From NCBI GenBank assembly GCA_028875875.1, contig JAGWUV010000025.1, positions 1 to 64,000 on the forward strand: DNA of 64,000 nucleotides, written 5' to 3'. Under the pieces are notes generated by a model. That model saw nothing but the letters and a program-made list of their open reading frames with translations. It searched no databases and was not told the origin of the DNA. Positions within the stretch are counted from its first letter, which is position 1. Each line of letters begins with the position of its first letter. Positions 11,303 to 42,064 of the stretch are shown here, piece after piece. The translations under genes were made by a program, and so were the position numbers. This stretch comes from Bacteroidota bacterium (lineage in GTDB: Bacteria; Bacteroidota; Bacteroidia; Chitinophagales; Chitinophagaceae).

Positions 11303-11376
11303 GTTACCGGCTGCAGATACCATGTGTAGCGTCGTTGCGTCGCACTCTTCAGGGCCTTGTTCATTATTCAACAAAC
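11303..11376 (+). repeat. Dispersed intergenic repeat, copy 1
   Basis: This stretch begins GTTACCGGCTG, has TTGCGTCGCAC followed by CTTCAG in the middle, and TTGTTC towards the end. It lines up with 39887-39956 over its whole length, with one or two short gaps, and with the reverse complement of 35200-35255. It fills the roughly 100-base gap between the ExoA-like gene and the second aminotransferase. No coding potential, transposase or clear terminal inverted repeat is seen. Confidence 0.7.
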
Positions 11377-21064: not shown

Positions 21065-21090
21065 TTAATTTATAACCTTTGTATATCTAA

Positions 21091-21119
21091 CCCTCGAAAC
21101 TTTTTCGGGGGTTTTATTT
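21091..21119 (+). terminator. Rho-independent terminator after pnp
   Basis: CCCTCGAAA (21091-21099) pairs with TTTCGGGGG (21103-21111), with one T-G wobble and a three-base loop, and is followed by TTTTATTTT. Confidence 0.8.
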
Positions 21120-21126
21120 TAATATT

Positions 21127-21939
21127 ATGGATACGATAGAAGTTAGTATACAGGTACAAAATGAATTGTTGAAAGAGTTATTGATTGCTGAATTGAGCAA
21201 TCTGCAATTTGATGCTTTCGTGGAAGAAGATGCATTGTTGAAAGCTTATATTAAAGCAGACGTTTTTAATGAAACTGAGTTGAACTTTATTTTGAACAAA
21301 AATGATTTAAATTATTCATTATCAATTATTAAAGATCAAAACTGGAATCAATTATGGGAATCTAATTTTGCTCCTGTTATTGTTGATGATTTTGTAGGTG
21401 TAAGGGCGGAATTTCACGAAAAAATTGAAGGCGTGGTGCATGAAATCCTCATTACACCCAAAATGAGTTTTGGTACCGGGCATCATGCAACTACCTTCTT
21501 GGTGATGCAATTAATGAGGAAGATTGATTTTAAGGGCAAGTCCGTATACGATTTTGGAACAGGTACTGGCATTCTTGCTATTCTCGCTGAAAAACTAGGA
21601 GCCGGTAAGGTATTAGCGGTTGATAATGATGATTGGTGTATTGAAAATTCTTTAGAAAATATTCAAAAAAATAATTCTCAAGTAATTGAAATTCATAAAG
21701 TTGAAGATGCCAAATCAAATTTTAAATTTGATACTATTTTGGCTAATATAAATAGAAATATAATAGAAGACAATATCAGCTATTTGGTTGATAGCCTGAA
21801 GAACAACTCTCAATTGATCCTGAGTGGCTTACTTGAGTCCGATGAAGCAGCGATAGTACGTTTATGTGAAAATTATCAGCTTAAGCATATCAAAACAGAA
21901 AAAAAGAATGGCTGGATTGCCATTTTGCTGGAGCGTTAA
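21127..21939 (+). CDS. prmA: Ribosomal protein L11 methyltransferase
   Basis: The 270-residue protein carries an N-terminal substrate-recognition domain and a class I SAM-dependent methyltransferase domain. It has PKMSFGTGHHATT, the SAM motif VYDFGTGTGILAILAEKLGA, and NINRNII, which takes the place of the NPPY-type motif in PrmA. It should trimethylate amino groups of L11. The start lies just after the pnp terminator, so it must be transcribed separately or by read-through. Confidence 0.93.
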   Translation: MDTIEVSIQVQNELLKELLIAELSNLQFDAFVEEDALLKAYIKADVFNETELNFILNKNDLNYSLSIIKDQNWNQLWESNFAPVIVDDFVGVRAEFHEKIEGVVHEILITPKMSFGTGHHATTFLVMQLMRKIDFKGKSVYDFGTGTGILAILAEKLGAGKVLAVDNDDWCIENSLENIQKNNSQVIEIHKVEDAKSNFKFDTILANINRNIIEDNISYLVDSLKNNSQLILSGLLESDEAAIVRLCENYQLKHIKTEKKNGWIAILLER

Positions 21940-35199: not shown

Positions 35200-35255
35200 G
35201 AACGTACAAGTGAGTGACACAACTGTCGCATAATCAGGGCACTACAGCCGGTTAC
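35200..35255 (-). repeat. Dispersed intergenic repeat, copy 3 (degenerate, inverted)
   Basis: On the plus strand this ends CTACAGCCGGTTAC and has GAGTGACACAAC in the middle, the reverse complement of the GTTACCGGCTG and GTTGCGTCGCACTC parts of copy 1 (11303-11376). Several gaps and substitutions are needed, so it is an older or partial copy. It lies in the gap between the J-domain gene and smc. Confidence 0.5.
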
Positions 35256-35350
35256 CGTATTTTTCTCACTACTTCTCCACAAGAACTGTTAATCTATCTG
35301 ATTTCTATGGGTAAATGTGTATGTTCGCAGGTACTAAAATTATTGAGAAC

Positions 35351-38967: not shown

Positions 38968-39402
38968 AACAAGACCGTCATTATACTGTACCTCGTTGTT
39001 TTTGGAACATTCGTTTTATTTACACGTCAACCCGATTATTTCGACGGAGAAATTACAAGTGCTACCATTCATTGGTATAAGGATAGCAGTGCTACCAAGC
39101 CCATACCACATGCGGTTTTTACTATTGGGAAAGATCAGTATGCTTGTATAGCAGATTATATTTTCAGGTCTTTACCCGAAGGGAAAACCGTAAATGTAAT
39201 ATATGAAACTGCACATCCAAAACAGGCTGCTGTTTATAGTTGGTGGGGCTATTGGCTTACGGCAGGAGAACTGGTATTCTCTATTGTTTTAATCATTGTG
39301 CTTTATCAAATAGCAGTTGCGGTTACAAAAAATCCAACGCCAGAAGCAGTGCTGGAGCAAATGGAATATCAACCGGAAAAAAAGAAAAAGTATGTGGATT
39401 AA
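38965..39402 (+). CDS. Small membrane protein, DUF3592-like
   Basis: A protein of about 145 residues with one N-terminal helix (VIILYLVVFGTFVLF), an extracytoplasmic beta-rich part with SATIHWYKDSS, HAVFTIGKDQY and VNVIYETAHPKQAAVYSWWGYWL, and a second helix (FSIVLIIVLYQIAVAV). This topology and the VxYxxxxPxxAxxYSWWG-like pattern resemble DUF3592. The start is uncertain: the frame is open from 38884 but that part is the smc terminator, so a TTG at 38965 is the best candidate. Function unknown. Confidence 0.6.
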   Translation: MNKTVIILYLVVFGTFVLFTRQPDYFDGEITSATIHWYKDSSATKPIPHAVFTIGKDQYACIADYIFRSLPEGKTVNVIYETAHPKQAAVYSWWGYWLTAGELVFSIVLIIVLYQIAVAVTKNPTPEAVLEQMEYQPEKKKKYVD

Positions 39403-39843
39403 TTATTTCAGGTAACGCTTAATTTCTCTCTCGGTATCGCGTTGCTTAATGGTATCCCTTTTATCGTACAATTTCTTACCCTTTGCCAAACCTATCTCTA
39501 CCTTCACAAGGTTTTTATCGTTGATAAATACACGCAGAGGCACTATCGTAAGGCCTTTATCTTTCAACTTTATTTCAAGCCGCTTTAATTCTCTTTTTGT
39601 GAGCAGCAGCTTGCGGTCGTGTACCGCAATATGATTGTTATAGGTACCCAATCCATACTCCGCAATATACAAGCCGCGTAACCAAAGCTCGCCATTATCA
39701 AACAAGCAGAAAGCATCGTTGAAACTCACTTTCCCTTCCCGTATACTTTTCACTTCAGTGCCCAGCAATACAATGCCGGCCACATATTTATCTTCTATGT
39801 AGTAGTTAAAATAAGCCTGCCTGTTGTTCATTTCCTTTGCCAT
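39403..39843 (-). CDS. smpB: SsrA-binding protein
   Basis: The 146-residue protein has the SmpB signatures: NRQAYFNYYIEDKYVAGIVL, LLGTEVKSIREGKVSFNDAF and the YLLTKRELKRLE-like region, and a basic C-terminal tail (KRDTIKQRDTEREIKRYLK) that reaches into the mRNA path. It binds tmRNA and brings it to stalled ribosomes. No tmRNA gene was recognised nearby. A terminator-like hairpin ends two bases before its ATG. Its stop touches the convergent membrane-protein gene. Confidence 0.97.
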   Translation of the reverse strand: MAKEMNNRQAYFNYYIEDKYVAGIVLLGTEVKSIREGKVSFNDAFCLFDNGELWLRGLYIAEYGLGTYNNHIAVHDRKLLLTKRELKRLEIKLKDKGLTIVPLRVFINDKNLVKVEIGLAKGKKLYDKRDTIKQRDTEREIKRYLK

Positions 39844-39845
39844 AC

Positions 39846-39872
39846 AAAAAAATCCCGCAGCTGAGTGCGGGA
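39846..39872 (-). terminator. Terminator-like hairpin directly before the smpB start
   Basis: On the minus strand TCCCGCA (39872-39866) pairs with TGCGGGA (39859-39853) around six bases, and is followed by seven T (39852-39846), then GT and the smpB ATG (39843-39841). It has the form of an intrinsic terminator for accD, but leaves no room for a promoter between it and smpB. Confidence 0.7.
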
Positions 39873-39886
39873 CGGAATTTTATTTT

Positions 39887-39956
39887 GTTACCGGCTGTTA
39901 CACCTATGTTCAGCTTTACTTGCGTCGCACACTTCAGCACTCTGTTCTTTACTGAA
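39887..39956 (+). repeat. Dispersed intergenic repeat, copy 2
   Basis: It begins GTTACCGGCTG, has TTGCGTCGCAC followed by ACTTCAG, then CTGTTC, in the same order and spacing as copy 1 (11303-11376). It fills the gap between the accD stop and the smpB leader hairpin. Confidence 0.7.
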
Positions 39957-39959
39957 CTT

Positions 39960-40883
39960 TTAATTTCTGAATAACAATATCAGTTGATGTAATTTATCTT
40001 TCAGTTGCTTCCTGTCAACAATAAAATCTAAGAATCCGTGTTCCAGTAAAAATTCACTGCGTTGAAAACCTTCCGGCAGATCTTTCTTTATGGTTTCCTT
40101 AATTACACGTGGCCCGGCGAAACCGATCAGTGCACCCGGCTCGGCAATATTAAGATCCCCCAGCATACCAAAACTTGCAGAAATACCACCAAACGTAGGG
40201 TCTGTAAGCATTGAAATGTAAGGAAGCTTTGCATCGCTCAGTTGAGAAAGTTTACCACTTGTTTTGGCGAGCTGCATCAAACTGAAAGCGCTTTCCATCA
40301 TCCTGGCACCACCACTTTTAGAGATCACGAGGTAGGGGAGTTTATGTTCAATGCAATAATCAACAGCCCTGCTGAATTTCTCACCCATCACACTTCCTAA
40401 AGAACCACCGATGAACTCGAAGTCCATACAGGCTACCACCATTTTCTCTCCATTAATCTCACCCACGGCAACACGCATAGAATCTTTCAGGTCGGTTTTG
40501 GAATGGATCTCATCCAAACGTTTCTGGTAAGGTTTCAGATCGGTAAAATGAAGGAAATCGATACTGCGGATATTATCAAAGAGTTCGGTGTACTCGCTGT
40601 TATCAAAGATAATTTCGTAGTATTCTTCGCTACCAATACGATGGTGATAATTGCACTTTACACATACAAATAACTCTTCTTTGAGCTCTTTGGTAGTGGT
40701 AATGTGGTTACAATTCGGACATTTATTCCAAAGCCCTTCCGGGGTTTCCTTTTTATCAGCCGTAGAAGTTAAAATACCCTTTTTCCTTCTCTTAAACCAA
40801 CTTCTTTTACTGTTCTCTTCCTGGTGATTGTCTTCTTCACCAGTGAGGTTATTTTCAAAATCTTCTTCTCGTTCTTTTTTCAT
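39960..40883 (-). CDS. accD: Acetyl-CoA carboxylase, carboxyltransferase subunit beta
   Basis: The product from the ATG at 40883 has 307 residues. The zinc ribbon is CPNC and CVKC (17-19 residues apart), followed by the crotonase-like core with GEINGEKMVVACMDFEFIGGSLGSVMGEKFSRA, KSGGARMMESAFSLMQLAKT and DPTFGGISASFGMLGD. It moves carboxyl groups from biotin to acetyl-CoA to make malonyl-CoA. About 30 charged residues precede the SWFKRRKKG that usually opens the protein. A TATTTTTG element upstream supports this start over a frame extension to 40946. accA is not in the window. Confidence 0.95.
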   Translation of the reverse strand: MKKEREEDFENNLTGEEDNHQEENSKRSWFKRRKKGILTSTADKKETPEGLWNKCPNCNHITTTKELKEELFVCVKCNYHHRIGSEEYYEIIFDNSEYTELFDNIRSIDFLHFTDLKPYQKRLDEIHSKTDLKDSMRVAVGEINGEKMVVACMDFEFIGGSLGSVMGEKFSRAVDYCIEHKLPYLVISKSGGARMMESAFSLMQLAKTSGKLSQLSDAKLPYISMLTDPTFGGISASFGMLGDLNIAEPGALIGFAGPRVIKETIKKDLPEGFQRSEFLLEHGFLDFIVDRKQLKDKLHQLILLFRN

Positions 40884-40913
40884 ACGATCAGTCAATTGGG
40901 GATTTGAAGATAG

Positions 40914-40921
40914 CAAAAATA
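40914..40921 (-). promoter_or_regulatory. Probable -7 promoter element of accD
   Basis: On the minus strand this reads TATTTTTG, matching TAnnTTTG, 30 bases before the accD ATG at 40883. The -33 element is not clear. Confidence 0.4.
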
Positions 40922-41005
40922 AGGGTGTTTGTCCATAGAACAGCATTTCTAAACAAGCACCCCCAATTTAGTCCTGTTATCCACATTTGGCCTTTTTGAA
41001 AAAAA

Positions 41006-42064
41006 TTATGCTATGGAAATGCCCTCATCGAGATACACATCCTGCGTTGCATGTAACAACTCAATTCCCTCATTCATAGGCTTCTGGAATGCTTTTCTTC
41101 CTAGTATCAATCCCATTCCACCGGCTCTTTTGTTAATAACAGCTGTGTAAACTGCTTCCGCCATATCCGAAGCGCCTTTACTTTCACCACCTGAATTAAT
41201 CAACCCAACCCTGCCGCTATAGCAATTCAGTACCTGGTAACGACAAAGATCGATGGGATGATCGGAGGTGAGCTTTTCATATACAAGGGGAGAAGTTTTA
41301 CCATGTTTGGTAGCAAGGTAGCCGCCATTATTGGTAGGTAACTTTTGTTTAATGATATCGGCCTGTAGCGTAACACCTAAGTGATTGGCTTGTCCTGTAA
41401 GATCGGCGGAAGTATGATAATCCACACCATCCACTTTAAAAGCATTATTGCGCAGGTAACACCACAGAATGGTGGCCATACCTAATTCATGAGCCATTTC
41501 AAACGCTTCGGCTACTTCTTTCAGTTGCCTGTTGCTTTCAGCACTGCCCCAGTAAACCGTAGCGCCAACTGCCACTGCTCCCATATTCCAGGCGCTTTTT
41601 ATGGTGCCGAACATGGTTTGATCAAAACGGTTAGGATAGCTCAGAAATTCGTTATGATTGATTTTTACTATGAACGGAATTTTATGTGCATATTTTCTAC
41701 TCATAATTCCTAAAACTCCGAATGTGGATGCCACACCGTTGCACCCGCCTTCTATGGCCAGCTTTACGATATTTTCCGGGTCGAAGTAAATAGGATTGGG
41801 AGCAAAAGCCGAACCGCCACTGTGTTCAATGCCCTGGTCTACCGGAAAGATGCTGCAATAACCTGTGCCGCCAAGCCTGCCGTGGTGTAATAATGATTGC
41901 AAACTATTTAAAGTAGGGTTATTCCTGTTGCTGTTCACCCAAACATCATCAAGATGCGTTGGTGAGGGAAGTGTTAATGATGATTTAGGAACGGTTGTAC
42001 ATTCATGTTCCAATAGATAAGCCGCTTTATCGCCCAGTAGGTCGAGAATTTTTTGATTGGCCAT
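41006..42064 (-). CDS. fbaB: Class I fructose-bisphosphate aldolase (FbaB/DhnA type)
   Basis: From the ATG at 42064 the product is 352 residues, the usual length of the bacterial FbaB group. It has [16 protein letters not shown], the [16 protein letters not shown] barrel segment, [22 protein letters not shown] and a C-terminal [16 protein letters not shown] phosphate-binding region. It forms a Schiff base with its substrate and works in glycolysis or gluconeogenesis. An in-frame extension to 42112 is not supported. The 246-base gap upstream, shared with pcm, is AT-rich and holds no other feature I can support. Confidence 0.9.

Follow-up and report, generated by a model that had tools for sequence, protein, structure and literature searches.

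Intrinsic (Rho-independent) terminators are recognised by a GC-rich stem with a T-run immediately after it. The hairpin described here lies on the minus strand of a 64,000-nucleotide stretch of Chitinophagaceae DNA, referred to below as the window, and shares with such terminators a stem of 7–8 pairs, a 6-nt loop and seven T directly after the stem. However, only two bases separate the T-run in the window from the next start codon, that of smpB, and in some relatives the smpB hairpin shares its DNA with a promoter box.

The housekeeping sigma −7 box in Bacteroidota is TAnnTTTG, which a study on Flavobacterium psychrophilum places at −12 to −5, together with a median 5′ UTR of 24 nt (PMC9723704); a second study gives a 5′ UTR mode of 23 nt and a median of 32 nt in Bacteroides (B. 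thetaiotaomicron) (PMC7366714). The smpB leaders of ten relatives resemble these promoters in carrying an exact TAnnTTTG at the hairpin and in the length of their predicted 5′ UTRs, but the box of the window is degenerate and the start would fall in or at the arm of a terminator. Transcription attenuators likewise have a terminator-like structure before a gene, as smpB does; however, the alternative fold or leader peptide of an attenuator cannot fit in the relatives with the box.

The greater part of the same intergenic gap resembles another described group, the CGTC-tagged REPs, which also have no known transposase (PMC3733652). Compared with the elements treated there, the repeat in the window has CGTC/TGTC on the strand opposite its core, the family forms head-to-head heterodimers, and no associated transposase was found; unlike in them, no 8–9 bp stem was seen within the repeat unit, and it is the two units of a dimer that pair with each other.

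The hairpin between accD and smpB

Both genes are on the minus strand. smpB (39403–39843) encodes 146 aa (PF01668, 1.5e-55) with its ATG at 39843–39841, and its 5′ neighbour is the open reading frame of accD, the acetyl-CoA carboxylase carboxyltransferase beta gene (39960–40946; PF01039, 9.7e-17; PF17848, 1.8e-5). The accD stop ends at 39960, leaving a gap of 116 nt that is made up of two parts, a repeat copy of about 79 nt and the hairpin with its T-run and a GT. The repeat copy (about 39881–39959, minus strand), recognised by blastn copies, is a single unit of a dispersed REP-like family and has its core, AGTGTGCGACGCAA, at 39920–39933. The hairpin, GTCCCGCA-CTCAGC-TGCGGGAT (39852–39873, minus strand), was found by sequence, fold and pattern scan and begins 86 nt from the accD stop on the same strand; its stem consists of seven Watson–Crick pairs (TCCCGCA/TGCGGGA) and one outer G–T pair. 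The seven-T run (39846–39852, minus strand) is followed by GT and then by the smpB ATG.

The initial annotation had described a terminator-like 7-bp hairpin two bases before smpB, and the structure is borne out by the fold of the hairpin alone (39841–39880), at −13.2 kcal/mol with z −3.71; only one of 200 dinucleotide shuffles is equally stable. Longer stretches of the window leader fold ordinarily, with z −0.72 for 136 nt and −1.18 for 101 nt. In the window the stem-plus-T pattern occurs once, with no second match at up to three mismatches and none in 100 shuffles. Across 39000–41200, Rfam returned nothing up to E = 1. The GC-rich stem, the immediate T-run and the position 3′ of the accD stop are those of an intrinsic terminator, in agreement with the initial annotation, and the hairpin recurs in some relatives with compensatory changes.

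The smpB start codon was called by script as the ATG nearest the first residue of the smpB query. In 80 smpB leaders from the family, the scripted start is ATG in 78 and leaves at least four residues before the NR motif in 72, while it gives MNNRQ or MNNKQ in four rows (L107, L189, L221 and L226). In the window, smpB likely starts at MAKE by this comparison; codon 5 may be an alternative start.

Recurrence of the hairpin in the family

smpB is present in 137 of the 147 family genomes searched, the window genome counted, and the genome scan gave at least 80 named smpB loci. The leaders read come from the window, 15 named loci (L106–L119 and L132) and 69 of the 136 other smpB-bearing family genomes, and 80 leaders remain after five duplicate rows were dropped; 65 other named loci, of which L121 and L124 carry Chitinophagaceae in their titles, lie outside this set. 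Among the matches listed, Sediminibacterium ginsengisoli has the smpB nearest to that of the window for a named cultured relative (84%). accD lies upstream of smpB within 400 nt in 70 of the 80 leaders and further off in four, and it was not found on the available sequence piece in six.

By the first scan rule, a hairpin whose T tail ends no more than 15 nt from the smpB ATG is present in 16 of the 80 leaders, compared with 0.55 per set expected from mononucleotide shuffles. By a second rule, a hairpin lies within 15 nt of the start in 13 of the 54 smpB leaders with an accD–smpB gap of 40–160 nt, window included, compared with 6 of 189 other co-directional gaps of equal length. The control gaps were taken from the window genome, G004, G147 and 12 named loci, with nine smpB gaps and duplicates removed. 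The Fisher value for this enrichment is 8e-6, or 2.6e-5 with the window row excluded, both of which overstate it, since orthologues do not count as independent observations and the controls do not come from the leaders' own genomes. The two rules differ in what they detect; L211 was missed by the first and found by the second.

Ten stems, picked for a TCCCG-like base, were compared pair by pair. Starting at the outermost pair, the arms were aligned by hand, since MAFFT misplaced L211 and L112, and hairpins with another base (L110, L228, L229, L231 and others) lie outside this comparison. Pairs 0, 1, 5, 6, 7 and 9 vary on both sides with the pairing retained, the sole exception being one T–T mismatch in the outermost pair (pair 0). 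These changes are compensatory, and therefore the pairing itself has been kept. Terminator-like sites are common around the locus (11 in 8 kb compared with 6.6 ± 2.5 in shuffles) and several near relatives have no hairpin, as a functionless chance inverted repeat would allow; however, a z of −3.7, a clean T-run and the return of the hairpin before smpB in other genera, where the changes preserve the pairing, make such an accident highly improbable.

On the smpB tree, which is built from few columns and poorly resolved at many forks, the hairpin is scattered: 18 hand-labelled rows require 16 label changes, compared with a shuffle mean of 16.4, and 261 of 500 label shuffles are as low as 16. The initial annotation had named absence of conservation in close relatives as grounds against its proposal, and such absence is seen in part: the near relatives L187, L106, L189, L193 and L208 are without the hairpin, whereas L190, about equally close to the window, has it. 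L193 and L208 are weakly supported sisters of the window (81/69). Judged from these leaders, the hairpin before smpB is kept or regained often and is not required.

A promoter box at the base of the hairpin in some relatives

Among the 13 leaders with the hairpin, ten (10 of the 54 with a gap of 40–160 nt) have an exact TAnnTTTG abutting the 5′ arm, where a box was counted as abutting when its end lay −4 to +8 nt from the hairpin start. No abutting box was found in the 189 control gaps, 21 of which have the box elsewhere, and the Fisher value of 1.5e-7 overstates the contrast in the same way as those above. The initial annotation held that there is no room for a promoter, so that smpB could only be transcribed through the hairpin. 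For the family this premise is wrong, because the box abuts the hairpin in ten relatives and a promoter overlapping the hairpin is possible there. As a general arrangement of genes, box, hairpin and ATG in succession are ruled out by the same control gaps under the strict rule; when 1,036 ORFs were scanned by a looser rule, the succession turned up twice, at smpB of L112 and at prmA of the window.

From the published box position, the predicted start is the fifth base after the G of the box, which falls in or at the 5′ arm. The 5′ UTRs predicted from it measure 21–45 nt to the smpB ATG in the ten leaders. Over these leaders the fold energy of the readthrough RNA is −11.9 to −23.4 kcal/mol and that of the RNA from the predicted +1 is −1.2 to −13.4 kcal/mol. 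A start within the 5′ arm would thus leave smpB's own RNA with a weakened hairpin. The extent of the loss differs among relatives: the hairpin is nearly gone in L197, L203 and L228, −10.5 to −13.4 kcal/mol is retained in L112, L202, L211 and L231, and L190 retains −14.0 of −18.5 kcal/mol.

A different placement of the box is seen in L238, L245 and L248 (genomes G148, G090 and G097), where the hairpin before smpB has the stem TAAGAGG/CCTCTTA and TAnnTTTG lies inside its loop. The start is predicted there in or after the 3′ arm, and no hairpin is left in the RNA from the loop box; L245 has a second box upstream, from which the whole stem is retained.

These leaders also bear on a regulatory hairpin of the smpB mRNA, acting as an attenuator or as a block to ribosome binding, which the initial annotation had suggested and which stays unproven. 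The compensatory stem changes and the position right before the ATG in some relatives would suit such a role, as would the large part of the stem that RNA begun at the predicted start retains in several of them. However, 21–45 nt leave no room for a leader peptide or an antiterminator where the box abuts the stem, and neither was found in the ten relatives with the box. Furthermore, the hairpin is absent from several near relatives and scattered on the smpB tree, where an attenuator would call for conservation among close relatives, and the longer stretch of the window leader folds ordinarily (z −0.72). A regulatory role is, on this balance, improbable, and in the window genome no evidence of a regulatory switch was found in the sequence, the folds or the relatives' leaders.

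The box of the window and a parallel before prmA

L197 and L203 have TACTTTTG directly before the same TCCCGC stem, at the place where the window has AAATTCCG, which agrees with TAnnTTTG at three of six positions. Two bases further upstream, TAAAATTC (39875–39882, minus strand) agrees at four of six and is a weak, degenerate candidate −7 box; five 8-mers of the 116-nt gap, this one included, reach that score. The only five-of-six match, TTTTTTTG, is without the A, and its start would fall inside smpB. Near the hairpin of the window no TAnnTTTG was found, the best agreement being four of six. The box of the window is degenerate, and therefore the evidence for the window genome extends to the terminator half of the arrangement only.

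Elsewhere in the window, on the plus strand, the gap between pnp and prmA (Pfam assignments) contains the promoter-like TAACCTTTG (21073–21081), which is one base longer than the box, followed by 7 nt, a hairpin (21089–21113), a T-rich tail and the prmA ATG at 21127, 54 bp overall. This stretch (21065–21126) resembles the smpB leaders of the relatives, and the predicted start precedes the stem there.

The degenerate box is consistent with another account, in which the hairpin is an ordinary accD terminator that lies beside smpB by chance in a compact genome, readthrough or an unrecognised promoter supplies the smpB transcript, and the overlap is without function. The patchy distribution of the hairpin on the smpB tree also agrees with it, as do the terminators that lie equally near a start in 6 of the 189 other gaps. 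However, chance placement does not sit well with a box that abuts the hairpin in ten of 13 hairpin leaders and in none of the control gaps, and this account is regarded as rather doubtful.

The dispersed repeat in the same gap

A single member of a REP-like repeat family fills most of the interval between accD and the hairpin, with approximate boundaries drawn from a column profile of 39 copies. blastn of the repeat against its own genome gave 40 matches, itself and one hairpin-only match included. The core AGNGTGCGACGCAA has 97 exact copies in the window genome, compared with none for the reversed pattern; a second copy in the window lies at 11335–11348 (minus strand). Across the 147 family genomes the core is absent from 66 and reaches 1,608 copies in G077 and 1,602 in G147, with 0–1 for the reversed pattern. 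Copy number also differs within a genus, with 376 in G109 compared with 0 in G003, and 153 in G004 compared with 0 in G110. A second core type, AGTGAGTGACACAA, has 38 copies in the window genome and 813 in G147; one lies at 35209–35222 (plus strand), just upstream of an SMC gene at 35315 (Pfam).

On the opposite strand, core A reads TTGCGTCGCAC and core B TTGTGTCACTC, which gives the CGTC/TGTC tag. The two cores differ at three positions and occur in two states only; in 400 kb of G147, a single intermediate was seen over 187 sites. In the same 400 kb the two cores make 186 sites and form 32 neighbouring pairs within 250 bp, compared with 20.4 expected if spread over all DNA. Thirty of the 32 pairs are head to head, and 22 of these 30 are A–B heterodimers; one dimer is a near-perfect palindrome about its centre. 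The other 122 of the 186 cores lie outside such pairs. In G147, head-to-head dimers thus occur beside singles. A stem of 8–9 bp with a loop of 4–5 nt was not found within the unit, the alifold consensus having only three pairs, and stretches with a single core fold with a mean z of −0.2 to −0.4.

With up to two mismatches allowed, the core count in the window genome rises from 97 to 127, compared with 32 for the reversed control, so that the core hardly decays there. Damaged cores exceed the control by about 311 in G147 (1,959 in all, of which 1,602 are exact, with 46 for the control); in G004 the excess is about 33 (299, 153 and 113, respectively). The flanks vary strongly between copies. In G024 and G121, four copies lie at the same places with exact cores and flanks differing by 3–14%, and in a fifth pair (L317/L318) the core differs only at N. 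At the smpB locus, L197 (G031) has a copy with the same place and orientation, and so does L203 (G079), where the copy is of the second core type; it is therefore not certain that the insertion is shared by descent. L213 (G007) has a reversed, slightly altered copy at smpB.

Repeat copies are mostly intergenic, and cores within ORFs are few: G147, which is 77% coding, has 3 of 116 there, and G004, which is 82% coding, has 6 of 59. This rarity disfavours a DNA uptake sequence. A 5′ UTR RNA element was rejected, given the mixed gene orientation and the unstable folds of single-core stretches. In low-copy genomes an autonomous element was likewise rejected, because the genes between the two inverted cores of G024 and G121, which are separated by 2,258 bp, are ordinary ones, in L305 urocanase and YgbB. 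A Y1_Tnp match is present in 10 of the 13 genomes checked, and no transposase was found to accompany the repeat over these 13 genomes and their 29 Y1_Tnp loci, one of which, in G077 with its 1,608 cores, has core A on both sides. Mobilisation by a RAYT, as for GTAG REPs, is disfavoured by this near lack of flanking and by the absence of a Y1_Tnp match from G000, G147 and G031, all of which bear the repeat. Rfam over 140 kb of G004 gave two tRNAs only, and no published description of a dispersed repeat in Chitinophagaceae, or of its core strings, was found among the open-licence papers listed.

In the 5.08-Mb contig C1 of G004, the cores listed appear by eye to be denser at about 1.5–2.5 Mb than at 0–1 Mb. 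Fifteen stretches of contigs entered as viral in IMG/VR (L325–L339), which may be phage or host DNA, contain the core and part of the right-hand flank.

Interpretation and implications

The favoured reading, to which about an even chance is given, is that the hairpin is a terminator of the accD transcript that shares DNA with the promoter and leader of smpB. The hairpin and T-run would act as an intrinsic terminator of a transcript whose last gene is accD, packed into the same few dozen bp as the promoter and leader of smpB. In the form that recurs in the family, TAnnTTTG ends at the base of the 5′ arm. A polymerase arriving from accD would copy the whole stem and stop, whereas one starting from the smpB promoter would begin in or at the 5′ arm, lose the outer pairs next to the U-run, and pass. 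The hairpin, the order of the genes, the recurrent succession of box, hairpin and ATG and the compensatory changes are observed, whereas the start site, the termination and the escape are inferred. The degenerate box of the window, the patchy distribution of the hairpin, the stable folds left from +1 in L112, L202, L211, L231 and L190 and the upstream box of L245 count against this reading.

A stronger form of this idea, in which a start within the 5′ arm makes the terminator selective, so that polymerases from accD are stopped and those of smpB are not, and in which the arrangement has repeatedly arisen or been kept before smpB in Chitinophagaceae with the box at the arm base or in the loop, is possible and is put forward tentatively. 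In the window genome, where the hairpin is kept and the box is degenerate, smpB would be transcribed from a weak or unrecognised promoter or by readthrough from accD. On the sequence evidence, the hairpin of the window is most likely an ordinary terminator, and the comparison of leaders suggests that the overlap with a promoter belongs to part of the family only. The open-licence papers listed yielded nothing on a terminator, promoter or hairpin of smpB, or on such overlapping terminators.

A hairpin before a start codon is not always an attenuator, and the locus calls for that caution. The repeat family may matter more than the hairpin, with more than 1,000 exact cores in some genomes and none in some congeners. 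If the overlap is real, a single element of about 45 bp would keep a gene of fatty-acid synthesis insulated from one of ribosome rescue in a compact genome, by the simple rule that a start site within the arm of a terminator would make the terminator one-way.
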